From positions 19,080,501 through 19,144,500 of the forward strand of contig NC_092580.1 of assembly GCF_037975245.1 (NCBI RefSeq): a stretch of 64,000 nucleotides of DNA, in the 5' to 3' direction. The DNA comes from Apostichopus japonicus (Eukaryota > Echinodermata > Holothuroidea > Aspidochirotida > Stichopodidae). Positions 6,893 through 36,252 of this stretch are shown here, piece after piece (position 1 is the stretch's first letter; each line of letters starts with the position of its first letter). The position numbers were made by a program, and so were the translations under genes. The notes beneath the pieces are model-generated. The model was not told the DNA's origin and searched no databases. It saw only the letters and a program-made list of their open reading frames with translations.

Positions 6893-6900
6893 ACCATTTT

Positions 6901-7026
6901 TCAAACAACATGTCTCTTTCTTCCTATGGCACCTGTTAGGAAAGTGATGAGGTCCCTCTTCTGAGGAGTTGCTGGCCCCCACAGAGTCCTCTTTTTCTTC
7001 ACAGCCCGTGTAACTTCATTTGTCAC
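6901..7026 (-). CDS. Terminal exon on minus strand, possible last exon of the IHO1-like gene
   Basis: Reading the minus strand, acceptor AATTGGATTTTAG is followed by a 41-codon open segment and TGA. It encodes VTNEVTRAVKKKRTLWGPAT and then PQKRDLITFLTGAIGRKRHVV. AATAAA follows almost at once. The exon starts in phase 0. The only coding exons upstream on this strand lie beyond the 22-kb satellite, where the last IHO1-like exon has two phase-0 GT sites (30026|30025, GTTAAG; 29996|29995, GTATTT). Joining them would make a roughly 23-kb last intron made almost wholly of satellite. Alternatively this is the end of another gene whose other exons I missed. The KR and GRKR motifs resemble prohormone cleavage and amidation sites, but one exon cannot establish a neuropeptide. 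Confidence 0.55.
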   Translation of the reverse strand: MTNEVTRAVKKKRTLWGPATPQKRDLITFLTGAIGRKRHVV

Positions 7027-7347
7027 CTAAAATCCAATTGGTTGGATAAGAGGATCAAGGTTTCTTGTATTTTAAAGTTATGTCAATTGAAAACATATCA
7101 AAAGTTGACCTAATATGTCCTTTATTCAATTTTAACCTTGTTCATTCACACAAATACAATTATTTCATTCAGTCATTCATACAAATTCATTCATACAAAT
7201 AATCTTCTTAGATTGGTACAACTTAAAAAGAAAAATAACCAACACCATTGTCTCGAAAGGGTACCCCATTGCTTTTTCTATTGCTTTTTCTATTGGTCTC
7301 ACAACGATGTGTTTTATGTAGATCTATTGACCTAACGGTCTATGCAT

Positions 7348-7397
7348 TCTCCATTAGGAACGGTGGACTAGCAGTTCGAAGAATACGTAATTGTAGC
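7348..7397. repeat. 50-bp direct repeat, left copy, bordering the satellite region
   Basis: This sequence starts TCTCCATTAGGAACGGTG and includes CTAGCAGTTCGAAGAATACG. It recurs at 29181-29230 in the same orientation with three mismatches in 50. It lies at the outer edge of the left GATA tract, and its partner lies at the outer edge of the right one. Confidence 0.9.
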
Positions 7398-7769
7398 TAG
7401 CTAGCTAGATACAAGAGATAGATATATGGATGGCTGAGATGCGATAGATTGCTGCGATGCGATAGATAGATGGCTAAGATGCGATAGATAGATGGCTAAG
7501 ATGCGATAGATAGATGGCTAAGATGCGATAGATAGATGGATGGCTAAGATGCGATAGATAGATGCTATGGATAGAATAGATGCGATACCATAGATTAGAT
7601 AGATACGATTAGATAGATACGATACGATAGATACGATACATAGATACGATAGATAGATAAATACCATAGATACGATACAATAGAAACGATACGATACATA
7701 CGATACAATAGATACGATACAATAGATACGGTACGATACAATAGATACGATACGATAGATAGATACGAT
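7398..7769. repeat. GATA/GATACGAT-type microsatellite, left flank
   Basis: This is an imperfect array of GATAGATA, GATGCGATAGATAG and GATACGATAGATA words. The minus-strand open frames in it (runs of YRIYCIVSIVS) are artefacts of the repeat. It continues after the inserted element at 8299-8345. Confidence 0.95.
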
Positions 7770-8298
7770 CAAGGGCGGCGGAACCGGGGGTCACAGGGGG
7801 CACGTGCCCCCCCATTTTTCCTCAGGTTAAAAATGTGCCCTTTTTCTACATAGAAATTGAGGTGTCTCAAGTTAGCAAGAGGCCAGGGAACCAGAATGAA
7901 CACTCGGGAAGGGCCATCTGAGGGGTTTGTAAAACCAAAAAATTTTCTAGTACGCTCCGCGCCATCCGAATTTGTTAAGATATTAACAAGAAATAAACTC
8001 TTAATTCGGAAGATTCCTAAATTTGCAACTAGCATGATTTCACCTCAGTTTGTCTCAAAAGAAAACTTGTTCCTTGTTTCCCAATTTGCACATTGGATAT
8101 TGCAGTGCTAGTATGCATATTTTCCTTGAAGGGGGGTGGGGGGGGGCGTTGATGGAGTGATGTGTATACGCAAATAAGATCATACAATAAGAGTTATAAA
8201 GGGTACTAAATATAAGGCTGCATCAGTCCAATCGAATTCTTCAGAGTGCCCTCTGATGTCGGTGCCCCCCCAGATTAAAAGTGCTTCCGCCGCCCTTG
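7770..8298. mobile_element. hAT-like nonautonomous element inserted in GATA satellite
   Basis: Terminal inverted repeats CAAGGGCGGCGGAA (7770-7783) and TTCCGCCGCCCTTG (8285-8298) are perfect over 14 bases. An identical 8-bp direct repeat, GATACGAT, flanks the element (7762-7769 and 8299-8306). An 8-bp target duplication is characteristic of the hAT superfamily, although here the target is itself repetitive. The interior shares GTACGCTCCGCGCCA with the 39270 element. It is 529 bases long with no transposase. Its open frames (7769-8035 minus, 7857-8111 plus) have no recognisable domain. Confidence 0.85.
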
Positions 8299-8350
8299 GA
8301 TACGATAGATAGATACGATAGATAGATACGATAGATAGATAAGATCGATA

Positions 8351-11300
8351 GAGGTACAGAGATACTACTACATACGAGAGGTAGAGAGATACTACTACAT
8401 ACGAGGGGTAGAGAGTTACTACTACATTTGAGTGGTAGAGAGATACTACTACATACGAGAGGTAGATAGATACTACATACGAGAGATAGAGAGATACTAC
8501 TACATACGAGAGGTAGAGAGATACTACTACATACCAGAGGTAGAGAGATACTACTACATACGAGAGGTAGAGAGATACTACTACATACGAGAGGTAGAGA
8601 GATACTACTACATACGAGGGGTAGATAGATACTACAACATACGAGAGGTAGAGAGATACTACTACATACGAGAGGTAGAGATACTACTACATACGAGAGG
8701 TAGAGAGATACTACTACATACTAGAGGTAGAGAGATACTACTACATACGAGAGGTAGAGAGATACTCCAACATAAGAGAGGTATTGTATACTCCTACATA
8801 CGAGAGGTAGAGAGATACTACTACATACCAGAGGTAGATAGATACTCCTACATACGAGAGGTAGAGAGATACTCCAACATACGAGAGGTAGATAGATACT
8901 ACTACATACGAGAGGTAGAGAGATACTACTACATACGAGAGTTAGAGAGATACTACTACATACGAGAGGTAGAGATACTACTACATACGAGAGGTAGAGA
9001 GATACTACTACATACGAGAGGTAGAGATACTACTACATACGAGAGGTAGAGAGATACTACTTCATACGAGAGGTAGATAGATACTACTTCATATGAGAGG
9101 TAGTGTATACTCCTACATACGAGAGGTAGTGTATACTCCTACATACGAGAGGTAGATAGATACTCCTACATACGAGAGGTAGTGTATACTCCTACATACG
9201 AGAGGTAGATAGATACTCCTACATACGAGAGGTAGATAGACACTCCTACATACGAGAGGTAGATAGACACTCCTACATACGAGAGGTAGATAGATACTCC
9301 TACATACGAGAGGTAGATAGATACTCCTATACGAGAGGTAGAGAGATACTCCTACATACGAGAGGTAGATAGATACTCCTACATACGAGAGGTAGATACT
9401 CCTACATACGAGAGGTAGATAGATACTACTACATACGAGAGGTAGAGAGTTACTATTACTACATACGAGAGGTAGAGATACTACTACATACGAGAGGTAG
9501 AGAGATACTACTACATACCAGAGGTAGATAGATACTCCTACATAAGAGAGGTATTGTATACTCCTACATACGAGAGGTAGATAGATACTCCTACATACGA
9601 GAGGTAGAGAGATACTACTACATACCAGAGGTAGATAGATACTCCTACATACGAGAGGTAGAGAGATACTCCAACATACGAGAGGTAGATAGATACTACT
9701 ACATACGAGAGGTAGAGAGATACTACTACATACGAGAGGTAGAGAGATACCACTACATACGAGAGGTAGAGATACTACTACATACGAGAGGTAGGGAGAT
9801 ACTACTACATACGAGAGGTAGAGATACTACTTCATACGAGAGGTAGAGAGATACTACTTCATACGAGAGGTAGATAGATACTACTTCATACGAGAGGTAG
9901 AGATACTCCTACATACGAGAGGTAGTGTATACTCATACATACGAGAGGTAGATAGATACTCCTACATACGAGAGGTAGTGTATACTCCTACATACGAGAG
10001 GTAGATAGACACTCCTACATACGAGAGGTAGATAGACACTCCTACATACGAGAGGTAGATAGATACTCCTACATACGAGAGGTAGATAGATACTCCTATA
10101 CGAGAGGTAGAGAGATACTACTACATACGAGAGGTAGATAGACACTCCTACATACGAGAGGTAGATAGATACTACTACATACGAGAGGTAGAGAGTTACT
10201 ATTACTACATACAAGAGGTAGAGAGATACTACTACATACGAGGGGTAAAGAGATAAACTACTACATTTGAGTGGTAGAGAGATACTACTACATACGAGAG
10301 GTAGAGAGATACTACATACGAGAGATAGAGAGATACTACTACATACCAGAGGTAGAGAGATACTACTACATACGAGAGGTAGAGAGATACTACTACATAC
10401 GAGAGGTAGAGAGATACTACTACATACGAGAGGTAGAGAGATACTACTACATACGAGAGGTAGAGAGATACTACTACATACGAGAGGTAGAGAGATACTA
10501 CTACATACGAGAGGTAGAGAGATACTACTACATACGAGAGGTAGAGAGATACTACTACATACGAGAGGTAGAGAGATACTACTACATACGAGAGGTAGAG
10601 AGATACTACTACATACGAGAGGTAGAGATACTCCTACATACGAGAGGTAGAGAGATACTCCTACATACGAGAGGTAGATAGATACTCCTACATACGAGAG
10701 GTAGATAGATACTCCTACATACGAGAGGTAGATAGATACTACTACATACGAGAGGTAGAGAGTTACTATTACTACATACAAGAGGTAGAGAGATACTACT
10801 ACATACGAGGGGTAAAGAGATAAACTACTACATTTGAGTGGTAGCGAGATACTACTACAAACGAGAGGTAGAGAGATACTACATACGAGAGATACAGAGA
10901 TACTACTACATACCAGATGTAGAGAGATACTACTACATACGAGAGGTAGAGAGATACTACTACATACGAGAGGTAGAGAGATACTACTACATACGAGAGG
11001 TAGAGAGATACTACTACATACGAGAGGTAGAGAGATACTATTACATACGAGAGGTAGAGAGATACTACTACATACGAGAGGTAGAGATACTACTACATAC
11101 GAGAGGTAGAGAGATACGACTACATACGAGAGGTAGAGATACTACTACATACGAGAGGTAGAGAGATACTACTTCATACGAGAGGTAGATAGATACTACT
11201 TCATACGAGAGGTAGAGATACTCCTACATACGAGAGGTAGTGTATACTCCTACATACGAGAGGTAGATAGATACTCCTACATACGAGAGGTAGTGTATAC

Positions 11301-14300
11301 TCCTACATACGAGAGGTAGATAGATACTCCTACATACGAGAGGTAGATAGACACTCCTACATACGAGAGGTAGATAGACACTCCTACATACGAGAGGTAG
11401 ATAGATACTCCTACATACGAGAGGTAGATAGATACTCCTACATACGAGAGGGAGAGAGATACCCCTACATACGAGAGGTAGATAGATACTCCTACATACG
11501 AGAGGTAGATAGATACTCCTACATACGAGAGGTAGATAGATACTACTACATACGAGAGGAAGAGAGATACTATTACTACATACGAGAGGTAGAGAGATAC
11601 TACTACATACGAGGGGTAAAGAGATACTACTACATTTGAGTGGTAGAGAGATACTACTACATACGAGAGGAAAAGAGATACTACTACATACGAGAGGTAG
11701 ATAGATACTACTACATACCAGAGGTAGAGAGATACTACTACATACGAGAGGAAGAGAGATACTACTACATACGAGAGGTAGAGAGATACTACTACATACG
11801 AGAGGTAGAGAGATACTACTACATACGAGAGGTAGAGAGATACTACTACATACGAGAGGTAGAGAGATACTACTATATACGAGAGGTAGAGAGATACTAC
11901 TACATACGAGAGGTAGAGATACTACTACATACGAGAGGTAGAGAGATACTACTTCATACGAGAGGTAGATAGATACTACTTCATACGAGAGGTAGAGATA
12001 CTCCTACATACGAGAGGTAGTGTATACTCCTACATACGAGAGGTAGATAGATACTCCTACATACGAGAGGTAGTGTATACTCCTACATACGAGAGGTAGA
12101 TAGATACTCCTACATAAGAGAGGTAGATAGACACTCCTACATACGAGAGGTAGATAGACACTCCTACATACGAGAGGTAGATAGATACTCCTACATACGA
12201 GAGGTAGATAGATACTCCTACATACGAGAGGTAGATAGACACTCCTACATACGAGAGGTAGATAGACACTCCTACATACGAGAGGTAGATAGATACTCCT
12301 ACATACGAGAGGTAGATAGATACTCCTATACGAGAGGTAGAGAGATACTCCTACATACGAGAGGTAGATAGATACTCCTACATACGAGAGGTAGATAGAT
12401 ACTCCTACATACGAGAGGTAGATAGATACTACTACATACGAGAGGTAGAGAGTTACTATTACTACATACAAGAGGTAGAGAGATACTACTACATACGAGG
12501 GGTAAAGAGATAAACTACTACATTTGAGTGGTAGAGAGATACTACTACATACGAGAGGTAGAGAGATACTACATAGAGAGATACAGAGATACTACTACAT
12601 ACCAGATGTAGAGAGATACTACTACATACGGGAGGTAGAGAGATACTACTACATACGAGAGGTAGAGAGATACTACTACATACGAGAGGTAGAGAGCTAC
12701 TACTACATACGAGAGGTAGAGAGATACTACTACATACGAGAGGTAGAGAGATACTATTACATACGAGAGGTAGAGAGATACTACTACATACGAGAGGTAG
12801 AGATACTACTGTACTACATACGAGAGGTAGAGAGATACTACTACATACGAGAGGTAGAGATACTACTACATACGAGAGGTAGAGAGATACTACTTCATAC
12901 GAGAGGTAGATAGATACTACTTCATACGAGAGGTAGAGATACTCCTACATACGAGAGGTAGTGTATACTCCTACATACGAGAGGTAGATAGATACTCCTA
13001 CATACGAGAGGTAGTGTATACTCCTACATACGAGAGGTAGATAGATACTCCTACATACGAGAGGTAGATAGACACTCCTACATACGAGAGGTAGATAGAC
13101 ACTCCTACATACGAGAGGTAGATAGATACTCCTACATACGAGAGGTAGATAGATACTCCTACATACGAGAGGGAGAGAGATACCCCTACATACGAGAGGT
13201 AGATAGATACTCCTACATACGAGAGGTAGATAGATACTCCTACATACGAGAGGTAGATAGATACTACTACATACGAGAGGTAGAGAGTTACTATTACTAC
13301 ATACAAGAGGTAGAGAGATACTACTACATACGAGGGGTAAAGAGATAAACTGCTACATTTGAGTGGTAGAGAGATACTACTACATACAAGAGGTAGAGAG
13401 ATACTATTACTACTTACGAGAGGTAGAGAGATACTACTACATACGAGGGGTAAAGAGATACTACTACATTTGAGTGGTAGAGAGATACTACTACATACGA
13501 GAGGAAGAGAGATACTACTACATACGAGAGGTAGATAGATACTACTACATACCAGAGGTAGAGAGACACTACTACATACGAGAGGAAGAGAGATACTACT
13601 ACATACGAGAGGTAGAGAGATACTACTACATACGAGAGGTAGAGAGATACTACTACATACGAGAGGTAGAGAGATACTACTACATACGAGAGGTAGAGAG
13701 ATACTACTACATACGAGAGGTAGAGAGATACTACTACATACGAGAGGTAGAGATACTACTACATACGAGAGGTAGAGAGATACTACTACATACGAGAGGT
13801 AGAGATACTACTACATACGAGAGGTAGAGAGATACTACTTCATACGAGAGGTAGATAGATACTACTTCATACGAGAGGTAGAGATACTCCTACATACGAG
13901 AGGTAGTGTATACTCCTACATACGAGAGGTAGATAGATACTCCTACATACGAGAGGTAGTGTATACTCCTACATACGAGAGGTAGATAGATACTCCTACA
14001 TACGAGAGGTAGATAGACACTCCTACATACGAGAGGTAGATAGACACTCCTACATACGAGAGGTAGATAGACACTCCTACATACGAGAGGTAGATAGATA
14101 CTCCTACATACGAGAGGTAGATAGATACTCCTACATACGAGAGGTAGATAGATACTCCTACATACGAGAGGTAGTGTATACTCCTACATACGAGAGGTAG
14201 ATAGATACTCCTACATACGAGAGGTAGTGTATACTCCTACATACGAGAGGTAGATAGATACTCCTACATACGAGAGGTAGATAGACACTCCTACATACGA

Positions 14301-17300
14301 GAGGTAGATAGACACTCCTACATACGAGAGGTAGATAGACACTCCTACATACGAGAGGTAGATAGATACTCCTACATACGAGAGGTAGATAGATACTCCT
14401 ACATACGAGAGGTAGATAGATACTCCTACATACGAGAGGTAGATAGATACTCCTACATACGAGAGGTAGAGAGATACTACTACATACGAGAGGTAGAGAT
14501 ACTACTACATACGAGAGGTAGAGAGATACTACTACATACGAGAGGTAGATAGATACTCCTACATACGAGAGGTAGTGTATACTCCTACATACGAGAGGTA
14601 GATAGATACTCCTACATACGAGAGGTAGTGTATACTCCTACATACGAGAGGTAGATAGATACTCCTACATACGAGAGGTAGATAGACACTCCTACATACG
14701 AGAGGTAGATAGACACTCCTACATACGAGAGGTAGATAGATACTCCTTCATACGAGAGGTAGATAGATACTCCTACATACGAGAGGTAGAGAGATACCCC
14801 TACATACGAGAGGCAGATAGATACTCCTACATACGAGAGGTAGATAGATACTCCTACATACGAGAGGTAGATAGATACTACTACATACGAGAGGTAGAGA
14901 GATACTATTACTACATACGAGAGGTAGAGAGATACTACTACATACGAGGGGTAAAGAGATACTACTACATTTGAGTGGTAGAGAGATACTACTACATACG
15001 AGAGGAAGAGAGATACTACTACATACGAGAGGAAGAGAGATACTACTACATACGAGAGGTAGAGAGATACTACTACATACGAGAGGTAGAGAGATACTAC
15101 TACATACGAGAGGAAGAGAGATACTACTACATACGAGAGGTAGAGAGATACTACTACATACGAGAGGTAGAGATACTACTACATACGAGAGGTAGAGAGA
15201 TACTACTACATACGAGAGGTAGAGATACTACTACATACGAGAGGTAGAGAGATACTACTTCATACGAGAGGTAGATAGATACTACTTCATACGAGAGGTA
15301 GAGATACTCCTACATACGAGAGGTAGTGTATACTCCTACATACGAGAGGTAGATAGATACTCCTACATACGAGAGGTAGTTTATACTCCTACATACGAGA
15401 GGTAGATAGACACTCCTACATACGAGAGGTAGATAGACACTCCTACATACGAGAGGTAGATAGATACTCCTACATACGAGAGGTAGATAGATACTCCTAT
15501 ACGAGAGGTAGATAGACACTCCTACATACGAGAGGTAGATAGACACTCCTACATACGAGAGGTAGATAGACACTCCTACATACGAGAGGTAGATAGACAC
15601 TCCTACATACGAGAGGTAGATAGACACTCCTACATACGAGAGGTAGATAGATACTCCTACATAAGAAAGGTAGTGTATACTCATACATACGAGAGGTAGA
15701 TAGATACTCATACATAAGAGAGGTAGTGTATACTTCTACATACGAGAGGTAGATAGATACTCCTACATACGAGAGGTAGATAGATACTCCTACATACGAG
15801 AGGTAGATAGATACTCCTACATACGAGAGGTAGATAGATACTCCTATACGAGAGGTAGAGAGATACTCCTACATACGAGAGGTAGATAGATACTCCTACA
15901 TACGAGAGGTAGATAGATACTCCTACATACGAGAGGTAGATAGATACTACTACATACGAGAGGTAGAGAGTTACTATTACTACATACTAGAGGTAGAGAG
16001 ATACTACTACATACGAGGGGTAAAGAGATAAACTACTACATTTGAGTGGTAGAGAGATACTACTACATACGAGAGGTAGAGAGATACTACATAGAGAGAT
16101 ACAGAGATACTACTACATACCAGATGTAGAGAGATACTACTACATACGGGAGGTAGAGAGATACTACTACATACGAGAGGTAGAGAGATACTACTACATA
16201 CGAGAGGTAGAGAGATACTACTACATACGAGAGGTAGAGAGATACTACTACATACGAGAGGTAGAGAGATACTATTACATACGAGAGGTAGAGAGATACT
16301 ACTACATACGAGAGGTAGAGATACTACTACATACGAGAGGTAGAGAGATACTACTACATACGAGAGGTAGAGATACTACTACATACGAGAGGTAGAGAGA
16401 TACTACTTCATACGAGAGGTAGATAGATACTACTTCATACGAGAGGTAGAGATACTCCTACATACGAGAGGTAGTGTATACTCCTACATACGAGAGGTAG
16501 ATAGATAATCCTACATACGAGAGGTAGTGTATACTCCTACATACGAGAGGTAGATAGATACTCCTACATACGAGAGGTAGATAGACACTCCTACATACGA
16601 GAGGTAGATAGACACTCCTACATACGAGAGGTAGATAGATACTCCTACATACGAGAGGTAGATAGATACTCCTACATACGAGAGGGAGAGAGATACCCCT
16701 ACATACGAGAGGTAGATAGATACTCCTACATACGAGAGGTAGATAGATACTCCTACATACGAGAGGTAGATAGATACTACTACATACGAGAGGTAGAGAG
16801 TTACTATTACTACATACAAGAGGTAGAGAGATACTACTACATACGAGGGGTAAAGAGATAAACTACTACATTTGAGTGGTAGAGAGATACTACTACATAC
16901 AAGAGGTAGAGAGATACTATTACTACATACGAGAGGTAGAGAGATACTACTACATACGAGGGGTAAAGAGATACTACTACATTTGAGTGGTAGAGAGATA
17001 CTACTACATACGAGAGGAAGAGAGATACTACTACATACGAGACGTAGATAGATACTACTACATACCAGAGGTAGAGAGATACTACTACATACGAGAGGAA
17101 GAGAGATACTACTACATACGAGAGGTAGAGAGATACTACTACATACGAGAGGTAGAGAGATACTACTACATACGAGAGGTAGAGAGATACTACTACATAC
17201 GAGAGGAAGAGAGATACTACTACATACGAGAGGTAGATAGATACTACTACATACCAGAGGTAGAGAGACACTACTACATACGAGAGGAAGAGAGATACTA

Positions 17301-20300
17301 CTACATACGAGAGGTAGAGAGATACTACTACATACGAGAGGTAGAGAGATACTACTACATACGAGAGGTAGAGAGATACTACTACATACGAGAGGTAGAG
17401 AGATACTACTACATACGAGAGGTAGAGAGATACTACTACATACGAGAGGTAGAGATACTACTACATACGAGAGGTAGAGAGATACTACTACATACGAGAG
17501 GTAGAGATACTACTACATACGAGAGGTAGAGAGATACTACTTCATACGAGAGGTAGATAGATACTACTTCATACGAGAGGTAGAGATACTCCTACATACG
17601 AGAGGTAGTGTATACTCCTACATACGAGAGGTAGATAGATACTCCTACATACGAGAGGTAGTGTATACTCCTACATACGAGAGGTAGATAGATACTCCTA
17701 CATACGAGAGGTAGATAGACACTCCTACATACGAGAGGTAGATAGACACTCCTACATACGAGAGGTAGATAGACACTCCTACATACGAGAGGTAGATAGA
17801 TACTCCTACATACGAGAGGTAGATAGATACTCCTACATACGAGAGGTAGATAGATACTCCTACATACGAGAGGTAGATAGATACTCCTACATACGAGAGG
17901 TAGAGAGATACTACTACATACGAGAGGTAGAGATACTACTACATACGAGAGGTAGAGAGATACTACTACATACGAGAGGTAGATAGATACTACTTCATAC
18001 GAGAGGTAGAGATACTCCTACATACGAGAGGTAGTGTATACTCCTACATACGAGAGGTAGATAGATACTCCTACATACGAGAGGTAGTGTATACTCCTAC
18101 ATACGAGAGGTAGATAGATACTCCTACATACGAGAGGTAGATAGACACTCCTACATACGAGAGGTAGATAGACACTCCTACATACGAGAGGTAGATAGAT
18201 ACTCCTTCATACGAGAGGTAGATAGATACTCCTACATACGAGAGGTAGAGAGATACCCCTACATACGAGAGGCAGATAGATACTCCTACATACGAGAGGT
18301 AGATAGATACTCCTACATACGAGAGGTAGATAGATACTACTACATACGAGAGGTAGAGAGATACTATTACTACATACGAGAGGTAGAGAGATACTACTAC
18401 ATACGAGGGGTAAAGAGATACTACTACATTTGAGTGGTAGAGAGATACTACTACATACGAGAGGAAGAGAGATACTACTACATACGAGAGGAAGAGAGAT
18501 ACTACTACATACGAGAGGTAGAGAGATACTACTACATACGAGAGGTAGAGAGATACTACTACATACGAGAGGAAGAGAGATACTACTACATACGAGAGGT
18601 AGAGAGATACTACTACATACGAGAGGTAGAGATACTACTACATACGAGAGGTAGAGAGATACTACTACATACGAGAGGTAGAGATACTACTACATACGAG
18701 AGGTAGAGAGATACTACTTCATACGAGAGGTAGATAGATACTACTTCATACGAGAGGTAGAGATACTCCTACATACGAGAGGTAGTGTATACTCCTACAT
18801 ACGAGAGGTAGATAGATACTCCTACATACGAGAGGTAGTTTATACTCCTACATACGAGAGGTAGATAGACACTCCTACATACGAGAGGTAGATAGACACT
18901 CCTACATACGAGAGGTAGATAGATACTCCTACATACGAGAGGTAGATAGATACTCCTATACGAGAGGTAGATAGACACTCCTACATACGAGAGGTAGATA
19001 GACACTCCTACATACGAGAGGTAGATAGACACTCCTACATACGAGAGGTAGATAGACACTCCTACATACGAGAGGTAGATAGATACTCCTACATACGAGA
19101 GGTAGATAGATACTCCTACATAAGAAAGGTAGTGTATACTCATACATACGAGAGGTAGATAGATACTCATACATAAGAGAGGTAGTGTATACTTCTACAT
19201 ACGAGAGGTAGATAGATACTCCTACATACGAGAGGTAGATAGATACTCCTACATACGAGAGGTAGATAGATACTCCTACATACGAGAGGTAGATAGATAC
19301 TCCTATACGAGAGGTAGAGAGATACTCCTACATACGAGAGGTAGATAGATACTCCTACATACGAGAGGTAGATAGATACTCCTACATACGAGAGGTAGAT
19401 AGATACTACTACATACGAGAGGTAGAGAGTTACTATTACTACATACTAGAGGTAGAGAGATACTACTACATACGAGGGGTAAAGAGATAAACTACTACAT
19501 TTGAGTGGTAGAGAGATACTACTACATACGAGAGGTAGAGAGATACTACATAGAGAGATACAGAGATACTACTACATACCAGATGTAGAGAGATACTACT
19601 ACATACGGGAGGTAGAGAGATACTACTACATAGGAGAGGTAGAGAGATACTACTACATACGAGAGGTAGAGAGATACTACTACATACGAGAGGTAGAGAG
19701 ATACTACTACATACGAGAGGTAGAGAGATACTATTACATACGAGAGGTAGAGAGATACTACTACATACGAGAGGTAGAGATACTACTACATACGAGAGGT
19801 AGAGAGATACTACTACATACGAGAGGTAGAGATACTACTACATACGAGAGGTAGAGAGATACTACTTCATACGAGAGGTAGATAGATACTACTTCATACG
19901 AGAGGTAGAGATACTCCTACATACGAGAGGTAGTGTATACTCCTACATACGAGAGGTAGATAGATACTCCTACATACGAGAGGTAGTGTATACTCCTACA
20001 TACGAGAGGTAGATAGATACTCCTACATACGAGAGGTAGATAGACACTCCTACATACGAGAGGTAGATAGACACTCCTACATACGAGAGGTAGATAGATA
20101 CTCCTACATACGAGAGGTAGATAGATACTCCTACATACGAGAGGGAGAGAGATACCCCTACATACGAGAGGTAGATAGATACTCCTACATACAAGAGGTA
20201 GATAGATACTCCTACATACGAGAGGTAGATAGATACTACTACATACGAGAGGTAGAGAGTTACTATTACTACATACAAGAGGTAGAGAGATACTACTACA

Positions 20301-23300: not shown

Positions 23301-26300
23301 CTACATACGAGAGGTAGTGTATACTCCTACATACGAGAGGTAGATAGATACTCCTACATACGAGAGGTAGATAGACACTCCTACATACGAGAGGTAGATA
23401 GACACTCCTACATACGAGAGGTAGATAGATACTCCTTCATACGAGAGGTAGATAGATACTCCTACATACGAGAGGTAGAGAGATACCCCTACATACGAGA
23501 GGCAGATAGATACTCCTACATACGAGAGGTAGATAGATACTCCTACATACGAGAGGTAGATAGATACTACTACATACGAGAGGTAGAGAGATACTATTAC
23601 TACATACGAGAGGTAGAGAGATACTACTACATACGAGGGGTAAAGAGATACTACTACATTTGAGTGGTAGAGAGATACTACTACATACGAGAGGAAGAGA
23701 GATACTACTACATACGAGAGGAAGAGAGATACTACTACATACGAGAGGTAGAGAGATACTACTACATACGAGAGGTAGAGAGATACTACTACATACGAGA
23801 GGAAGAGAGATACTACTACATACGAGAGGTAGAGAGATACTACTACATACGAGAGGTAGAGATACTACTACATACGAGAGGTAGAGAGATACTACTACAT
23901 ACGAGAGGTAGAGATACTACTACATACGAGAGGTAGAGAGATACTACTTCATACGAGAGGTAGATAGATACTACTTCATACGAGAGGTAGAGATACTCCT
24001 ACATACGAGAGGTAGTGTATACTCCTACATACGAGAGGTAGATAGATACTCCTACATACGAGAGGTAGTTTATACTCCTACATACGAGAGGTAGATAGAC
24101 ACTCCTACATACGAGAGGTAGATAGACACTCCTACATACGAGAGGTAGATAGATACTCCTACATACGAGAGGTAGATAGATACTCCTATACGAGAGGTAG
24201 ATAGACACTCCTACATACGAGAGGTAGATAGACACTCCTACATACGAGAGGTAGATAGACACTCCTACATACGAGAGGTAGATAGACACTCCTACATACG
24301 AGAGGTAGATAGATACTCCTACATACGAGAGGTAGATAGATACTCCTACATAAGAAAGGTAGTGTATACTCATACATACGAGAGGTAGATAGATACCCAT
24401 ACATAAGAGAGGTAGTGTATACTTCTACATACGAGAGGTAGATAGATACTCCTACATACGAGAGGTAGATAGATACTCCTACATACGAGAGGTAGATAGA
24501 TACTCCTACATACGAGAGGTAGATAGATACTCCTATACGAGAGGTAGAGAGATACTCCTACATACGAGAGGTAGATAGATACTCCTACATACGAGAGGTA
24601 GATAGATACTCCTACATACGAGAGGTAGATAGATACTACTACATACAAGAGGTAGAGAGTTACTATTACTACATACAAGAGGTAGAGAGATACTACTACA
24701 TACGAGGGGTAAAGAGATAAACTACTACATTTTAGTGGTAGAGAGATACTACTACATACGAGAGGTAGAGAGATACTACATAGAGAGATACAGAGATACT
24801 ACTACATACCAGATGTAGAGAGATACTACTACATACGGGAGGTAGAGAGATACTACTACATACGAGAGGTAGAGAGATACTACTACATACGAGAGGTAGA
24901 GAGATACTACTACATACGAGAGGTAGAGAGATACTACTACATACGAGAGGTAGAGAGATACTATTACATACGAGAGGTAGAGAGATACTACTACATACGA
25001 GAGGTAGAGATACTACTACATACGAGAGGTAGAGAGATACTACTACATACGAGAGGTAGAGATACTACTACATACGAGAGGTAGAGAGATACTACTTCAT
25101 ACGAGAGGTAGATAGATACTACTTCATACGAGAGGTAGAGATACTCCTACATACGAGAGGTAGTGTATACTCCTACATACGAGAGGTAGATAGATACTCC
25201 TACATACGAGAGGTAGTGTATACTCCTACATACGAGAGGTAGATAGACACTCCTACATACGAGAGGTAGATAGACACTCCTACATACGAGAGGTAGATAG
25301 ACACTCCTACATACGAGAGGTAGATAGATACTCCTACATACGAGAGGTAGATAGATACTCCTACATACGAGAGGGAGAGAGATACCCCTACATACGAGAG
25401 GTAGATAGATACTCCTACATACGAGAGGTAGATAGATACTCCTACATACGAGAGGTAGATAGATACTACTACATACGAGAGGTAGAGAGTTACTATTACT
25501 ACATACAAGAGGTAGAGAGATACTACTACATACGAGGGGTAAAGAGATAAACTACTACATATGAGTGGTAGAGAGATACTACTACATACAAGAGGTAGAG
25601 AGATACTATTACTACATACGAGAGGTAGAGAGATACTACTACATACGAGGGGTAAAGAGATACTACTACATTTGAGTGGTAGAGAGATACTACTACATAC
25701 GAGAGGAAGAGAGATACTACTACATACGAGACGTAGATAGATACTACTACATACCAGAGGTAGAGAGATACTACTACATACGAGAGGAAGAGAGATACTA
25801 CTACATACGAGAGGTAGAGAGATACTACTACATACGAGAGGTAGAGAGATACTACTACATACGAGAGGTAGAGAGATACTACTACATACGAGAGGTAGAG
25901 AGATACTACTACATACGAGAGGTAGAGAGATACTACTACATACGAGAGGTAGAGATACTACTACATACGAGAGGTAGAGAGATACTACTACATACGAGAG
26001 GTAGAGATACTACTACATACGAGAGGTAGAGAGATACTACTTCATACGAGAGGTAGATAGATACTACTTCATACGAGAGGTAGAGATACTCCTACATACG
26101 AGAGGTAGTGTATACTCCTACATACGAGAGGTAGATAGATACTCCTACATACGAGAGGTAGTGTATACTCCTACATACGAGAGGTAGATAGATACTCCTA
26201 CATACGAGAGGTAGATAGACACTCCTACATACGAGAGGTAGATAGACACTCCTACATACGAGAGGTAGAGAGATACTACTACATACGAGAGGTAGATAGA

Positions 26301-28738
26301 CACTCCTACATACGAGAGGTAGATAGATACTCCTACATACGAGAGGTAGATAGATACTCCTACATACGAGAGGTAGAGAGATACTACTACATACGAGAGG
26401 TAGAGATACTACTACATACGAGAGGTAGAGAGATACTACTTCATACGAGAGGTAGATAGATACTACTTCATACGAGAGGTAGAGATACTCCTACATACGA
26501 GAGGTAGTGTATACTCCTACATACGAGAGGTAGATAGATACTCCTACATACGAGAGGTAGTGTATACTCCTACATACGAGAGGTAGATAGATACTACTAC
26601 ATACGAGAGGTAGATAGACACTCCTACATACGAGAGGTAGATAGACACTCCTACATACGAGAGGTAGATAGACACTCCTACATACGAGAGGTAGATAGAC
26701 ACTCCTACATACGAGAGGTAGATAGATACTCCTACATACGAGAGGTAGATAGATACTCCTACATACGAGAGGTAGATAGATACTCCTACATACGAGAGGT
26801 AGAGAGATACTACTACATACGAGAGGTAGAGAGATACTACTACATACGAGAGGTAGAGATACTACTACATACGAGAGGTAGAGAGATACTACTTCATACG
26901 AGAGGTAGATAGATACTACTTCATACGAGAGGTAGAGATACTCCTACATACGAGAGGTAGTGTATACTCCTACATACGAGAGGTAGATAGATACTCCTAC
27001 ATACGAGAGGTAGTGTATACTCCTACATACGAGAGGTAGATAGATACTCCTACATACGAGAGGTAGATAGACACTCCTACATACGAGAGGTAGATAGACA
27101 CTCCTACATACGAGAGGTAGATAGATACTCCTTCATACGAGAGGTAGATAGATACTCCTACATACGAGAGGCAGAGAGATACCCCTACATACGAGAGGCA
27201 GATAGATACTCCTACATACGAGAGGTAGATAGATACTCCTACATACGAGAGGTAGATAGATACTACTACATACAAGAGGTAGAGAGATACTATTACTACA
27301 TACGAGAGGTAGAGAGATACTACTACATACGAGGGGTAAAGAGATACTACTACATTTGAGTGGTAGAGAGATACTACTACATACGAGAGGAAGAGAGATA
27401 CTACTACATACGATAGGTAGATAGATACTACTACATACGAGAGGTAGAGAGATACTACTACATACGAGAGGTAGAGAGATACTACTACATACGAGAGGAA
27501 GAGAGATACTACTACATACGAGAGGTAGAGAGATACTACTACATACGAGAGGTAGAGAGATACTACTACATACGAGAGGTAGAGATACTACTACATACGA
27601 GAGGTAGAGAGATACTACTACATACGAGAGGTAGAGATACTACTACATACGAGAGGTAGAGATACTACTACATACGAGAGGTAGAGAGATACTACTTCAT
27701 ACGAGAGGTAGATAGATACTACTTCATACGAGAGGTAGAGATACTCCTACATACGAGAGGTAGTGTATACTCCTACATACGAGAGGTAGATAGATACTCC
27801 TACATACGAGAGGTAGTTTATACTCCTACATACGAGAGGTAGATAGACACTCCTACATATGAGAGGTAGATAGACACTCCTACATACGAGAGGTAGATAG
27901 ATACTCCTACATACGAGAGGTAGATAGATACTCCTATACGAGAGGTAGATAGACACTCCTACATACGAGAGGTAGATAGACACTCCTACATACGAGAGGT
28001 AGATAGACACTCCTACATACGAGAGGTAGATAGACACTCCTACATACGAGAGGTAGATAGACACTCCTACATACGAGAGGTAGATAGATACTCCTACATA
28101 AGAAAGGTAGTGTATACTCATACATACGAGAGGTAGATAGATACTCATACATAAGAGAGGTAGTGTATACTTCTACATACGAGAGGTAGATAGATACTCC
28201 TACATACGAGAGGTAGATAGATACTCCTACATACGAGAGGTAGATAGATACTCCTACATACCAGAGGTAGAGAGATACTACTACATACGAGAGGAAGAGA
28301 GATACTACTACATACGAGAGGTAGAGAGATACTACTACATACGAGAGGTAGAGAGATACTACTACATACGAGAGGTAGAGAGATACTACTGCATACGAGA
28401 GGTAGAGAGATACTACTACATACGAGAGGTAGAGAGATACTCCTACATACGAGAGGTAGAGATACTACTACATACGAGAGGTAGAGAGATACTACTACAT
28501 ACGAGAGGTAGAGATACTACTACGTACGAGAGGTAGAGAGATACTACTTCATACGAGAGGTAGATAGATACTACTTCATAGGAGAGGTAGAGATACTCCT
28601 ACATACGAGAGGTAGTGTATACTCCTACATAAGAGAGGTAGTGTATACTCATACATACGGATAGGTAGAGAGATACTACTACATACGAGAGGTAGAGATA
28701 CTACTACATACGAGAGGTAGAGAGATACTACTTCATAC
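8351..28738. repeat. 27-bp satellite with higher-order repeats (about 20.4 kb)
   Basis: The basic unit is GAGAGGTAG, a variable middle (AGAGATACT, ATAGATACT, ATAGACACT, TGTATACT or AGATACT) and an end block (ACTACATAC, CCTACATAC or ACTTCATAC). Units are therefore 27, 26 or 25 bases long. Dividing the length by 27 gives about 750 units. Variants occur in ordered runs repeated on a kilobase scale, so this is a higher-order satellite. Because 27 is a multiple of three and the unit lacks stops in some frames, it makes spurious long frames on both strands (RYYYIREVE and ILLHTRGRE on plus, YLSYVGVSI on minus). The 25- and 26-base units break every such frame. It is purine-biased on the plus strand. 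Confidence 0.97.
14968..21885. repeat. 3,459-bp higher-order repeat, two adjacent copies
   Basis: The marker CATTTGAGTGGTAG recurs at 14968 and 18427, and the features that follow (around 15310, 16042 and 16511) all reappear 3,459 bases later (18769, 19501 and 19970). Some translated segments of the two copies are identical over more than 130 residues and others differ by one residue. One run of about 189 bases (seven 27-bp units) near 17.1 kb is present only in the first copy, offset elsewhere in the repeat. Blocks also recur at shifts of 1,345 (20446 to 21791), 3,885 (21791 to 25676) and 5,230 bases (18430 to 23660). Confidence 0.85.
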
Positions 28739-29135
28739 GGATAGGTAGATTACTACATACGGATAGGTAGATTACTACATACGGATAGGTAGATTACTAC
28801 ATACGGATAGGTAGATTACTACATACGGATAGGTAGATTACTACATACGGATAGGTAGATTACTACATACGGATAGGTAGATTACTACATACGGATAGGT
28901 AGATAAATACATACGGATAGGTAGATTACTACATACGGATAGGTAGATTACTACTACATACGGAAAGGTAGATAACTACATACGGATAGGTAGATTTCTA
29001 CATACGGATAGGTAGATTACTACATACGGATAGGTAGATTGCTACATACGGATAGGTAGATTACTACATACGGATAGGTAGATTACTACATATGGATAGG
29101 TAGATTACTACTACATACGAATAGGTAGATTACTA
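28739..29135. repeat. 22-bp satellite, GGATAGGTAG + ATTACTACATAC
   Basis: About 18 copies of a 22-base unit sharing the GGTAG and ACTACATAC blocks with the 27-bp satellite but lacking its middle. It begins exactly where the 27-bp array stops, so it looks like a derived or ancestral form of the same satellite. Confidence 0.95.
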
Positions 29136-29180
29136 CATACGAATAGGATAGGTAGGATAGGATAGTTAGGATAGGATAGA
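29136..29180. repeat. GGATAG/GATAG simple repeat
   Basis: A short degenerate run of GGATAGGATAG words linking the 22-bp satellite to the right-hand 50-bp direct repeat. Confidence 0.8.
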
Positions 29181-29230
29181 TCTCCATTAGGAACGGTGTA
29201 CTAGCAGTTCGAAGAATACGTAGGTGTAGC
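29181..29230. repeat. 50-bp direct repeat, right copy
   Basis: 47 of 50 bases match 7348-7397 in the same orientation. GATA-type sequence (29231-29304, including GATACCATAGATTAGATACG) follows, as it does the left copy, so the homology probably extends into the microsatellite. Confidence 0.9.
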
Positions 29231-29304
29231 AAGATATGATAGATAGCTAAGATACCATAGATTAGATACGATAGATAGATAGGTACGGTACGATAGATAC
29301 GATA

Positions 29305-29983
29305 CCCCACAACACAAACTCTCAACACCCCAACACAAACTCTCTACCCCCAACACAAACTCTCTACCCACGCCCCCAACACAAACTCTCAAACTCCCCA
29401 ACACAAACTTGATACTCCCCAATACAAACTCTCTACCCGCCCCAACACAAACTCTCTACCATCCCCAACACAAACTCGATACCCCCCAACACAAACTCTC
29501 TACCATCCCCAACACAAACTCGATACCCCCCCAACACAAACTCTCTACCATCCCCAACACAAACTCGATACCCCCAACACAAAGTCTCTAAACTTTACCT
29601 CCCCAACACAAACTCTCTAAACTTTACCTCCCCCAACACAAACTCTCTAAACTTTACCCCCAACACAAACTCTCTAAACTTTACCCCCAACACAAACTCT
29701 CTAAACTTTACCCCCCCAACTCAAACTCTCTAAACTTTACCCCCCCCCAACACAAACTCTCTAAACTTTACCCCCCCCAACACAAACTCTTTAAACTTTA
29801 CCTCCCCAACACAAAATCTCTAAACTTTACCTCCCCCAACACAAACTCTCTAAACTTTGCCCCCCAACACAAACTCTCTAAACTTTACCCCCAACACAAA
29901 CTCTCTAAACTTTACCTCCCCCAACACAAACTCTCTAAACTTCACCCCCCCCCCCCAACACAAACTCTCTAAACTTTACCCCC
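29305..29983. repeat. 27-bp minisatellite, CCCCAACACAAACTCTCT + AAACTTTAC
   Basis: More than 20 units are present. The first third of the array has shorter forms lacking AAACTTTAC (for example CCAACACAAACTCGATAC); later units have the full 27 bases with a variable C-run. The array ends at the base before the stop codon of the minus-strand IHO1-like exon at 29984, so it occupies the apparent 3' UTR. No AATAAA is seen on the minus strand within it. Confidence 0.95.
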
Positions 29984-32900
29984 TTAGATAAATACCCTTG
30001 CATCTGTGCAGTGGTTGTCCTTAACGTTGCGGAGAAAACATGGGCTGAATTCTTCTTCCTCCTCATCTGATGTGTTTATCTGTTGGTCCTCGATAGCATC
30101 GATGAAAAGATCTGTTTTTATTTAAAAGATATATTCACTCATAATTCCAGCAGAGAGATCATTTTCATACATCACAGTTGCACTTTTCACTATAAAGGAA
30201 CAAAGCTAAGGAAACCATGATAAAACATAATTAGTTAGTTCTGTGTGTTGCCAGGACACCAATAATGTCACAAACTTGTAACCTTAGTTATGAAATGATC
30301 CCTAAACACTAACTGATGAATTACACCACGATTCAGCACTGGCAATTTGTGGTACGGTGGTACAGTGGGATGGGCAGGCAGAATGCTCTTACTGTATTCA
30401 TTACCTTGAGATGATGAGACTCCCTGATGTTGTGCAGAGAGGAAAGTTCCCTCCGTTGAAGAGTTGTCACTGTCTGATCCATAGTTAGAAACAAACTGTG
30501 GCACTGTAAACAAGTTAAATTGCAGACCAAAGGAGAAATGATTTCATATGGTCATTTGGCTTTGATTGTCCTTTAGTTCAACAATACTCTCAAATCAACG
30601 ACCGTAAATTCAAGTAAGCAGAAACTGATTTGTTGCCAGAAGAGACTACACATTCCATAAGGCAATTTGATAAATTATAAATATATGAATCTTCACATAG
30701 TAAATTGCTATGACTATGTTATCCAACATAATTAATATAGTTTAAAAAAGTTTAGTGGTGGAACTCAGCATATAATAATATTCTGTAGTGTCCTGACGCA
30801 AGACTATATTCTATCAAATATTACAAGTCAATACCTGTTTGAAAAACCTCCTTCATTTGATTTCCGCTTCTTTTTCCTGATCTATTGTACGTCACTACTG
30901 GTGCTCCAAACACAGGTTCGTGACATGATGTATTGTGATTCTCACCAAAGTGAACGTATCCAGTCATTTCCATTGGTCTTCTTGGAACCTGGATGACTTG
31001 TTCATCATTATTCAAACCATAAAAATCCTTCTGGACAGCTCGTCGTTGGGAAGAACGTGCCATCTCAAAATTTAACTGACTTTGTGATTTACGCTTCATC
31101 TTGGTCATATATCCATGTGAATAAGCATCTCTTTTCTGGGTCTGACTTTTACGTTCTTGTGAGTAGCAAGCGGCTGCTGGATATTGTTTTCCACCAACCT
31201 TTCTCTCTTTCAGTCTCGCTGATCTTCGTTGTGGAGGTAAGTAATTATTTCTCTTTCCTTTTCTTCTTATATCCTGCTTGCTTGGTGCCACAGATGACTG
31301 GCCACCCCTAGGAATCACTTGTTGAATAGTTTCCTTTACTAGCGGGGCTACGGTTGCAACGGGGGATGGTCCTTTGCTACCCCATCTTGCGAAGGGAGTT
31401 CGCAGTGTCGGCTGGGTCACAGACTGCTGAGAAAGAGAGGGACTGCCAAATTCTGTTCTTTGCTCAGGAAGGGCATTGTGATTTTGATTTGAAGTGAAAT
31501 GACATTTTGATCTTGTTTGTCCGTTAACATAAACTTCCTGTGTCATGAGATTGAGTGTACTTTGCAGTACTCTACCATCCCTGGATGGCACAGAAGGCAT
31601 AGTTGGTTTAAGGGAGGCTTGATTAGAGGCAGCTGTACCGTGAACAGCAGTCAATGGTGCATTGTGATGTGGTATTGGGATAGCAGGTGGTAAATACTGA
31701 TGAGGCTTGGAGTTTGAAAGTCTGCTACCAGCATGGCCCCGAGATAAGTGATATGGTGATACCTGTCCACGACTGACGGAGATATTCTGGGATTCACTTG
31801 TGGATGCACCCGCGACTTGAGCAATTTGGACTAAATCCTTATTCCACTCCTGAGCAACCTTCCGGAAACCATCTTCCAGTTTCTCTTCCAACTTTGTAGC
31901 AGCGGTATTACAGAACTCATCTAGAAAATGTTGTTGATCCAGCTTCCAGCTGTTACAAGAGTCATCCAGGATCTTATTAACCTCCTCTATGTTTGCTTTG
32001 TGATGCTCTGAAGAAGTCTTTTGGAGAATTTGTTTGATTTCATCATATCTTGTGGCTCTGGCATTTTCAAGCTCAGATCGTAGAGTCTCAACAACTGCTT
32101 CTTTCTGAAATGTAAACAGAAAGTGTTTTGGGGTTCCTATGAGGTACATTCTTGAATACAAAAAATAAGAAAAGTTTGAAGAGATGATCCAAATCACATA
32201 CCACAATTGAATCATCTTATTACAAGATTCTATGGACAAAATTTGAGTGTATAGACATTAAGCCCCACTCACTTATTAATATACATAGTCAACACAAAGA
32301 AACAATAGGGTCTTATTCTTATTCAGAATTTGTACGTACCTACCTATTACAAACACACACATAACCTATCAAATAGAATTCTTGCACAATAAGCTGGTTT
32401 TCTGTTGCTGCAATATACAACTTGCATGAGTATGGTGCAACACTAGTCATTTTCCAAACGTTTCTAGAGTCAAGTATTTCAGTGGCAGTTCCTGCGGCAA
32501 AGCGTTCAGCAAGCTAAAACAAAAGGAATAAAACAAACTATTCTTCCAGGGTGCAAACCCCAGAGGCAGCATTTTGAATTTCTGCTCTTTCTCTGCTATC
32601 CTGAATCAGAAATGAGCATTATTTCACGACAGTTACTCTGGCACATTGGTCAGTGCTCTGTAAACAAAGGTATCATCTACTGGACTAAACAAGTAGAATA
32701 ATGGATATGATGGAGAAAGAGTTGTAAAATTACAATATTGTTGTTCTGTACCTCTTGAAGTTTATTTTCCATTTGGCTAGTTGTCTGGTAAACAGTCAGT
32801 TTGTTAATGACTTCCTGAAAGATATCTTTAGTGTAATCCTGAAAGCACTGGGAGGCTGAAATTAAATGAGAGAATTAAATTTAAAGTTAAGCGCAGGAAG

Positions 32901-35900
32901 AATTATTTAGTTTGTATAATATTCAATCCCCTTTTACATCAAGTGAAAGGACCCTATTTGCGAATCAGGACGTTAGTTGGAGGGAGTTGGAGGGGCAGTA
33001 GGATCAACTGCCAGGGGAGTTGAAATTGTTGCCTGTAACAACATTATAACCACATGAAAATCACTGCTGTTAAAATTATTGGTATAGAGGTTGGGGGGGA
33101 GGGGGTTCTTGATGTTAGGGCCCCTACAGTAGATGTTTACTATGTGGCAAAAACAATTCAATACAAATAAAAGGATGATTTTAGACAGAAGTTTAGCCCT
33201 CACATGGTGTAGTCTTAAGAAAACAGAATTAGAGCTAGGAATGTATCTATACCTATAATTAGAGTGTTCAAGATATATAACTTTAAAATATGGTGAATCT
33301 GTGGAATGTTCCCGTACGGCTAAATCAATGACGACATCAGCTCCTCAGTTAAGGCCTTAATATGTTCATGGTTATCCATTGTTTCATGTATTCTAATAAC
33401 AATATCAAAACATTTCTTATATTACATCATATAAACAACAGCAATTTCTTGGATGACATTCAACACTATTTGTCCCTCAAAAATTTATAACACATTATAA
33501 ACGTGTCTAATTTCCAGGCTATAAAAGTCTTGAGTTTTGTGTTGCATCTGATGAACTGACCTAATGATCTATGTATTAGACTACATAGTCCAGTCACTTT
33601 AATGGATTAACTTCAGCTGTTTAAAGATTTCTCAAAAATTAAAAATTATTACAGCAATACAACCTAGACTAATAGCCGTGGGTCTATTATTGTTTAGGAA
33701 TTGCTCATAACGTCAATTCATTAAACAATATCCAATCTCACGGATCTTGTAACCAAACTTGTGACAACTGTTTCATGATCAATGTTTTATCGAAACATGA
33801 CGGCATGTAGATTAACTAATGAGCAAAATGTTTCTTTCTTAATGCTGTATACACATGCAAACAAAATAGAGAACACATCAATTACTAATCAAATGTGACT
33901 ACTTTTATGATTGATGTATGTTGTTCTTTCAAGTAGGATTATTAAACATTCAAACACACTGATCATAGTTCTCTACATCAGTCCCTGGCATTTGACTTCC
34001 GAAGCTATTAATTTCCAAGTTCTAACATCCACAATACTGTAACTTTTTATAAAAGACTGAAGGTTCTCATTACTTTCGAGTTGTTAATCAAAGATCAGAT
34101 TGTGACTTTTGATACCTGAGGCCTCACATTTTACAGTATTCTCTGTCTGGTCACATTTCTCATGTCTGGTTGCTCAAATTACTCTTATTGAAGCTTATAG
34201 AATGTAAATCTCACTTTTTCTGAGGGCCTCTTCCGTCTTCACAGAAGCACTTGATATTTGTGTCTGCACATCAGTTTGCAGTTTCTCCACTACACTCTTG
34301 ATTTCATCTGTGCTTTCTTTGAGAAGACTGATAAGAGTGCATATAAGGTCCCTAAAACCAAAACAAAACAAGAGAAAAATAATGAGAAATGTGAGGTAAG
34401 TAAATTGGTTACAGTTGGTCAATTATTGCAATGTAATACTCATATTAATACTCATTAATACTCATATTAAAGGAGGATTAAAGAAATAAAAGCTAGAAAA
34501 ATCAAGACAGAAAACTGAGACAAGATCTGTGCACTTTATATAATATTGACCATTTAAGATATACACTTCTAAAATACAGACAATCATTTGTTATGGATGC
34601 TGGACTTGGCTTTTCTGTATTGAAATTTGCAAGATACAGTACTTTACCTTCACCTCATTGAAATTATAAATTTTTGTAATGTTCCTTTCAAGTTTTAAGG
34701 CAACATTCCATCATGACATCAGTTGCGAGATACACATAAATAGGTTTCAAAATTATTTGGCTTGCACTTAACCTAAAAACCAATCAGCTATGGAGAAATT
34801 CAATATTCTTTTGTGTGCAAGAGGAATTAATATCCCTGATATCATTTCACCATGCCTTGACTGCATGATTTCAACTTGTTCCAGTGTGCAATGAACTTTA
34901 GTCATCAATTCTTGACAAGAGGTCAAAGCAGACCCAAATAGTACATAAAATCATGTTCAAGAAAAATCAATCATAGAATCAAACCATCATTGTTTGAAAC
35001 TTTCAAGTTCATCAAGGAAAATCTCAGCAAAACAAAAACACTTTTACAATGCCAACTTTACATGATGGCCATCCATATGTAGAGGTGGGCACTTGGTCAA
35101 TAATCCTGCTGGCAATGTGTTTCCTTCACATTCATTAAACCCCATCGCAATCTCACAAAAAAAATTGAAGATATCTGTAAAAAATATGCTCCTTTTGCTA
35201 AATGCATATCTGCCTTGAAGTGCCAACAGGATGGGGCTGGGATGGGGTGGACTTTGTCCACAACTACATATGATGCAATAATGTGGAAATAAGTGGTTCC
35301 TAACCGTTCTTCTTTGTCTCTGATTTTTTGCTTCTGAAATTCCTGAAGATCCTGAAAACTTCTTTGTCTTGTTAACCCAGGCTTGTCACTAAGTGCTGTC
35401 ACTTCCTTCCCTCCTGTATTCCTGAATAAGGATGGTTTAGAGGTAAACTTTGTGTAGTACTTCTGTGCAACTTGTGAAGCCTGCAAAGAGTAATAAAATT
35501 GGAGAAAGACATTCAAAGACAATTAATACCAAAATAACAATAATAAAATTAAGGTTCCAATGGTTTGTTATCTGAGTCATCTCCAGTCCAGAACTGAATT
35601 ATTGTAATCTAATCTTACATGATTGCTCATGTATCCTCTATTGCTTCGCAACTTGACCAATGAATGATCTGCTAACACAGAGTTATCTGGAAGCTAGTTT
35701 GCAAAGTAGGAGTGAACAGGTGATAAGAAGTATATATGTTAGTTTATTCTTGCAAAAACAATTTTCAAAAACTCACCCAAGTATATTATTCAGAAGGTTT
35801 TGCTGATGAGAACTACTGTACCAACCTTTCCCTCATGCTAGCTTAGAAGCATGTCATACAATGTGAGTATAGCTAGTGACATTTGTTGCATTATAAGCTA

Positions 35901-36252
35901 AGCTTGACTTGACTCTGTTTGCCAGTTTGGGCACTTGGAACAATTATGTCATCAGTACCCTTTTGCACTTTTCGAATATATTCCACATTTTCCTGAGCCC
36001 CCCAAATACAGTTTGTGAAACATACCTGGGCAGAAGAGAAATGTTAACAGAACACTTTAAGGTATAGGTTACCTCACTAGGCTGAGAGTTGTATCCCTGC
36101 TGTTGAGACATCATCTGAGAGAACAGATCAAAAGAGCTGCATTGTGAATTCTCCATCTGGGATGATGTTTGCTCTGAATTCCTGAGACTCTGACTGGACT
36201 TGAGACCAACATCATCTGTCTCCAAAGAACCAACCATATATCTTCGCATCAT
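29984..36252 (-). CDS. IHO1: IHO1-like meiotic recombination protein (CCDC36 family)
   Basis: Eight exons join in phase on the minus strand: 36252-36073, 35480-35305, 34351-34215, 32855-32752, 32104-30835, 30503-30405 and 30111-29984, seven coding segments giving 697 residues, plus a possible extra exon. The start ATG (36252) has an in-frame TGA just upstream, within an exon whose acceptor is at 36273. The N-terminal part has a Ser/Gln-rich segment (DLFSQMMSQQQGYNSQ, residues 42-57). Next comes KYYTKFTSKPSLF (67-79), resembling the conserved N-terminal motif I recall in IHO1, and then charged coiled-coil sequence to about residue 290. A long disordered basic region includes QRRSARLKERK. The C-terminal part is acidic: NYGSDSDNSS (629-638) and NTSDEEEEEF (668-677). 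In mammals IHO1 binds HORMAD1 on unsynapsed chromosome axes and works with REC114-MEI4 in double-strand-break formation. Exon joins are well supported; orthology rests on short motifs, order and length. Confidence 0.72.

Follow-up and report, generated by a model that had tools for sequence, protein, structure and literature searches.

A locus-confined satellite array that may occupy the last intron of an IHO1-like gene in Apostichopus japonicus

Results

An IHO1-like gene on the minus strand

IHO1 is needed for the start of meiotic recombination, and IHO1/Mer2 proteins bind HORMAD1 and are required for meiotic breaks. In the genome of Apostichopus japonicus (assembly GCF_037975245.1, 671.6 Mb searched) we analysed a window of 64,000 nucleotides without any N (contig NC_092580.1, positions 19,080,501 to 19,144,500 of the forward strand). 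A likely IHO1-like gene on its minus strand is adjacent to a large satellite array, and an earlier reading of the same DNA, here called the original prediction, had put forward the last intron of the gene as a possible place for this satellite. The features of the gene are the following, in window positions and in gene direction, with a slash at exon boundaries:

36073..36252, minus: IHO1-like exon 1, coding part; ATG and open frame, donor GAG/GTAACC; the 5' end of the gene may lie further out
35305..35480, minus: IHO1-like exon 2; phase-matched, contains KYYTKFTSKPSLF, aligned to FTKYQTKPQLF of IHO1
34215..34351, minus: IHO1-like exon 3, where the coiled region begins; phase-matched, within the PF15771 match
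32752..32855, minus: IHO1-like exon 4; phase-matched, within the PF15771 match
30835..32104, minus: IHO1-like exon 5, 1270 nt; phase-matched, frame open over the full length
30405..30503, minus: IHO1-like exon 6; phase-matched, donor AAG/GTAATG at the 97.5th percentile, poor codon score
30117..30122, minus: AATAAA, a possible gene end ahead of the array, given read-through of exon 6 (TGA 30270-30268)
29996..30111, minus: IHO1-like exon 7 with the acidic patch TSDEEEEEF; phase-matched, read-through stop TAA 29986-29984
6901..7026, minus: proposed terminal exon 8; 41 codons, stop, AATAAA 8 nt on, one genome match

Exons 1-7 (36252-29996) are mutually phase-matched, and with exon 8 the eight segments join in phase to a protein of 735 residues. 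A genome search with this joined protein returned eight matches, one per exon and all at its own locus, as for a single-copy gene. A second copy, retrocopy or paralogue carrying exons 7 and 8 joined was rejected, the search having returned the gene's own exons only. Six of the introns measure 293 to 1359 bp; the one between exons 7 and 8, if these are joined, would extend over 29995-7027 (22,969 bp).

The IHO1-like identity claimed in the original prediction has support in the N-terminal half only. For a 195-aa N-terminal piece the best Pfam family was PF15771 (IHO1), with E 1.9e-4 and 20.8 bits over profile positions 50-208, and a one-sequence BLAST of the window protein against human IHO1 gave E 2e-7 for query residues 49-245. 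Shuffling did not reproduce the observed score, neither that of the core segment (0 of 1000) nor that of the whole protein (0 of 200). The human IHO1 sequence used here scores 1029 bits for IHO1 in Pfam. Counting against the identification, the score of 20.8 bits is below the curated cut-off of 27, and the N-terminal piece was picked after the full-length protein had given no IHO1 match (none at E<=10). A search of the genome with PF15771 also gave no match, though the controls were equally silent. In a solved-structure search with the whole protein the best E was 0.42, in the coiled region, which is not significant. Elsewhere in the genome there are a single MEI4 match and three pieces of HORMA domain; these pieces may come from other HORMA proteins, and two of them read across stops. 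We conclude that the gene is likely IHO1-like, for its N-terminal half only.

The satellite array and its flanks

Behind exon 7 the following features were located, again in gene direction:

29300..29983, unstranded: CCCCCAACACAAACTCTCTAAACTTTACC minisatellite and variants; 14 of 14 genome matches (<=2 mismatches) are here
29181..29254, minus: flank repeat, right copy; its 40-base core has exactly two genome matches; from alignment
28729..29147, unstranded: 22-bp satellite, 18.8 copies
8350..28749, unstranded: 27-bp satellite, 761 copies; genome count equal to window count
17665..21047, unstranded: internal block, recurs at 22895-26277 with 99.0% identity
14551..17266, unstranded: internal block, recurs at 18010-20725 (99.7%) and 23240-25955 (99.6%)
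7770..8298, unstranded: hAT-like non-autonomous element, 529 bp, in a GATA tract; 14-bp inverted ends, GATACGAT on both sides
7421..7769, unstranded: GATA-type tracts
7348..7420, minus: flank repeat, left copy; 7420 is the edge of the compared stretch and the copy may extend further

The 27-bp and 22-bp satellites together measure 20.8 kb and not the 22 kb given in the original prediction. The minisatellite begins 12 bases past exon 7 and occupies 29571-29983, with related units at 29300-29591. From exon 7 onwards in the minus direction it is followed by GATA-like pieces, the 22-bp array, the 27-bp array, a GATA tract, the hAT-like element and further GATA tracts, so that GATA-type tracts stand at both ends of the array. 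In its common forms the 27-bp unit (8350-28749, minus) carries, in gene direction, a pyrimidine stretch followed by TAG.

Counts of the 27-base unit (<=3 mismatches) are 629 for the genome, all forward and none reverse, and 629 for the window; for a 52-base dimer both counts are 253. Confinement of the 27-bp satellite rests on this equality of genome and window counts, and stretches of N in the assembly could hide copies. Two copies of the 40-base flank unit (<=3 mismatches), and no more, exist in the genome; they share their orientation and stand at opposite ends of the array, and their alignment covers about 73 bases, including adjacent TATC-type sequence. As far as tested, that is, for the 27-bp unit, the minisatellite and the flank unit at the mismatch limits used, the array is confined to this locus, where its units run head to tail adjacent to the IHO1-like gene. 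Since no copies of the satellite, minisatellite or flank turned up outside this locus, growth of the array in place is probable. Delivery of the satellite by a mobile element was considered and rejected: at the mismatch limits applied none of these three sequences recurred in other parts of the genome, and the hAT-like element lies beside the satellite and not around it. Blocks of 3,383, 2,716 and 1,363 bp recur within the array at 99.0-99.7% identity (diagonal scan), suggesting that the array was amplified or underwent exchange recently.

The element at 7770-8298, which we take to be hAT-like from its features, has short terminal inverted repeats and an 8-bp target duplication, GATACGAT. This duplication is weaker evidence than usual because the surrounding tract is itself GATA-rich. 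At least 76 other pieces, spread across the genome, are related to the element, with 85-96% identity (40 of 2,114 candidates scored).

Splice sites, polyadenylation signals and coding potential at the gene end

Splice sites were scored with human weights. The donors of exons 1-6 are at the 93rd-98th percentile and the acceptors of exons 2-6 at the 86th-99th. As stated in the original prediction, the frame of exon 7 (30111-29984) contains two phase-0 GT sites, AGG/GTATTT after 29996 (score -1.13) and AAC/GTTAAG at 30025 (-5.23), which are not ideal donors, and the segment at 7026-6901 starts in phase 0. Exon 8 thus fits phase 0 on both sides of the junction. Its acceptor, ATTGGATTTTAG/GTG, scores -1.12 (85th percentile), close to the exon 6 acceptor (-1.01); after 41 codons follow a TGA at 6903-6901 and an AATAAA that starts at 6892. 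A direct splice from exon 6 to exon 8 was discarded, the frame shutting after three codons (phases read by eye).

If exon 7 is not spliced at its donor, an in-frame TAA is reached at 29986-29984, 9 nt past the putative site. What follows this stop is minisatellite without AATAAA, again as predicted: between 29989 and 7127 neither AATAAA nor ATTAAA starts anywhere on the minus strand, which leaves 22.86 kb behind the stop free of both, and the first one reached is the AATAAA at 7126. The rest of the window holds 53 AATAAA on this strand. The 22.86 kb without a canonical poly(A) signal and the matching phases make a position of the array within the transcription unit plausible.

Coding potential was judged with two codon models, a gene model trained on exons 1-6 and a kinase model from 20 kinase loci. 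Among open non-coding windows exon 7 ranks in the top 3.0% (77/2539) with the kinase model and in the top 4.4% with the gene model, and exon 8 in the top 1.9% with the gene model. The models are weak judges, because they give exon 6 a score typical of non-coding sequence (equalled or beaten by 1801 of 3518 open non-coding windows), and they disagree on exon 8 (15% vs 2%).

The segment at 7026-6901 had been called a good terminal exon. It does have the acceptor, the 41 codons, the stop and the AATAAA, but taken alone it is not beyond chance expectation: at 400-7400 on the minus strand 63 of 358 AG sites open at least 30 phase-0 codons. Among 625 non-coding AG openings of 38-60 codons, 78 reach the kinase-model score of exon 8 and in 25 an AATAAA follows within 57 nt, but no opening combines the two. 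When the 207 phase-0 frames of at least 10 codons at 400-7400 were ranked by gene-model score per codon alone, exon 8 was 15th. One further phase-0 open frame in this region, 669-544 or 723-544 on the minus strand (41-59 codons), contains an acidic run, CSDDDYDDGDGD, and beats exon 8 on summed codon score in both models.

The acidic patch and the possible C-terminus

Exon 7 encodes TSDEEEEEF, an acidic patch near the C-terminus; in IHO1/Mer2 the acidic patch is SSM2-linked. Twenty residues follow it if the stop at 29984 is used and 58 if exon 8 is used. The candidate exon 8 peptide that would then follow the patch, RTLWGPATPQKRDLITFLTG, would end the protein with a basic tail (10 K/R and 2 D/E among 41 residues).

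In a graft test, pieces were joined to a truncated human IHO1 C-terminal piece and the gain in Pfam bits was read. Exon 7 gained 6.2 bits, exon 8 3.9, exon 6 1.1 and the exon 6 read-through 0.3. For comparison, the native human end gave +32.1 bits and exon 7 in four shuffled versions -0.4 to +4.2. The test weakly favours exon 7 as part of an IHO1 C-terminus.

Neighbouring features

On the same strand as the IHO1-like gene, 50690-51106 matches the queuosine salvage protein family (PF10343, E 3.4e-15) and points to a neighbouring gene. A HYR domain match (PF02494, E 4.2e-5) lies at 62273-62602 on the plus strand. Reverse-transcriptase-like open frames occupy 37298-38154 on the minus strand (LYIDDIFYVW...QVNFLDVTV) and presumably resemble a Penelope-type element; in Pfam neither frame matched at E<=0.01. 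Two short arrays at 4101-4496 and 63715-63954 share a unit of about 52 bp (ATACGATAAGTTGTCAATT...), which suggests a dispersed repeat family, and an inverted-repeat structure is found near 4.1-4.5 kb.

Discussion

The reading that we favour, while giving it slightly less than an even chance, is a satellite grown in place in the last intron of an IHO1-like gene, with exon 8 as the leading candidate for the last exon. That the array is intronic in this gene, whichever exon comes last, appears evenly balanced from the signals described. The junction of exons 7 and 8 is a candidate that we hold less likely than not, exon 8 being one of several possible last exons. The original prediction of a single intron of about 23 kb holding satellite, GATA tracts and transposon agrees with the layout, the phases and the length of 22,969 bp; the junction itself is putative.

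A number of measurements speak against this favoured reading. Both splice sites of exon 7, the acceptor (-3.90, 62nd percentile) and the donor (-1.13, 85th percentile), are the weakest of their kind in the gene. Within 7400-29995, the exon 7 donor is equalled or exceeded by 410 of the 2882 GT (its own counted among them) and the exon 8 acceptor by 999 of the 1629 AG. The kinase model rates 330 of 2162 open non-coding windows (15.3%) as highly as exon 8, which is 3rd (gene model) or 8th (kinase model) among the 207 phase-0 candidates. For exons 7-8 the searches gave no significant relative; their best hit in the solved-structure search (E 1.5) is not significant, and a genome search with exon 8 matched exon 8 itself only. 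Finally, the AATAAA at 30122, just upstream of the acceptor at 30111 and absent from the original prediction, permits an earlier end of the gene.

For this earlier end, the reading frame would run on from exon 6 as far as the TGA at 30270-30268 and cleavage of the transcript would follow the AATAAA at 30122, leaving exons 7 and 8 and the array outside the gene. The 45-codon read-through frame together with this signal would make a complete shorter gene, and the weak exon 7 acceptor overlaps the 30122 region. However, the exon 6 donor is strong (97.5th percentile), and the read-through codons resemble non-coding sequence (depending on the model, 26% or 38% of open non-coding windows are as good), whereas exon 7 is in the top 3-4% and brought the largest graft gain to the IHO1 C-terminal profile among the exon pieces tested. 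We consider this course improbable. Somewhat less so, though still unlikely, is a gene that stops at the TAA at 29986-29984 and carries minisatellite or satellite RNA as its 3' untranslated region (UTR), with cleavage at a variant signal, the array in or after the UTR and 7026-6901 as a chance frame. The closeness of this stop to a weak donor would fit, as would TATAAA variants at 27822, 24074, 20937, 18844 and 15385. Such a gene would, however, require a repeat UTR of about 2.2 kb or more in addition to the variant signal, with AATAAA and ATTAAA absent before 7126. If the gene ends before the array, the locus would be an ordinary intergenic array beside a fast-evolving gene.

The array could also be intronic with a different last exon, either another downstream exon or a 3' UTR exon, for instance 723-544 with its acidic stretch, or one beyond the window. 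With the gene model both 4892-4860 and 723-544 outrank 7026-6901, but the acceptor of 723-544 is poor (-4.64) and 4892-4860 has just 10 codons; we hold little expectation of this arrangement.

Returning to the satellite intron with exon 8, its origin may be pictured as follows. A TATC/GATA tract with about 40 bp of unique sequence would have been duplicated in tandem, and a simple repeat between the two copies would have grown by slippage and unequal exchange into the 27/22-bp satellite; later amplification probably copied blocks as long as 3.4 kb. The tract would also have received a hAT-like element. Situated in the last intron of the IHO1-like gene, the array would be transcribed and removed along with the intron, and use of 7026-6901 as last exon would give the protein a basic tail behind the exon 7 acidic patch. 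Very improbable, in our view, is the further idea that array length and hundreds of decoy acceptors set the frequency of the basic exon 8 tail behind the acidic HORMAD-binding patch, so that length alleles tune meiotic breaks; if true, it would make the locus a self-renewing recombination modifier.

A satellite at a single place, with duplicated flanks and near-identical blocks still visible, makes its birth open to study. As the array stands directly behind the acidic-patch exon, an influence of its length on expression or on the C-terminus is testable.

Among genes of recombination initiation, PRDM9 contains a minisatellite that encodes its zinc fingers. The present locus is alike in that a recombination-initiation gene bears a tandem array, but the PRDM9 array is coding and the present one non-coding. 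Among the titles and abstract openings listed by a literature search no satellite is described in a break-formation gene, which does not prove absence in print. In mouse IHO1 the acidic patch FDSSDDD at the C-terminal end is required for HORMAD1 binding (PMC10997794). The protein described here resembles this family in the N-terminal motif, the match over the coiled region and an acidic patch near the C-terminus; it differs in that FDSSDDD stands at the very end in mouse, whereas 20 or 58 residues follow TSDEEEEEF.

Satellite DNA in introns of germline-expressed genes is known from Drosophila, with gigantic, transcribed introns holding megabases of simple satellites in the spermatocyte genes kl-3 and kl-5 (PMC6508621). 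Those introns are shown to be transcribed, whereas the present array of about 21 kb is locus-confined and its transcription putative. Closer in size is an intronic variable number tandem repeat (VNTR) of human CACNA1C, called TRACT, with 30-bp units, a range of 3-30+ kb and long alleles of about 24 kb (PMC13131567). The original prediction had regarded a large array in such a gene as unusual, which in view of these human alleles was overstated. CACNA1C belongs to another gene class, and the intron here is putative and seen in one assembly; if the present array is intronic, both loci have units of about 30 bp in an intron of a single gene, the human sizes being comparable to the 27 bp and 20.8 kb of the array behind the IHO1-like gene.

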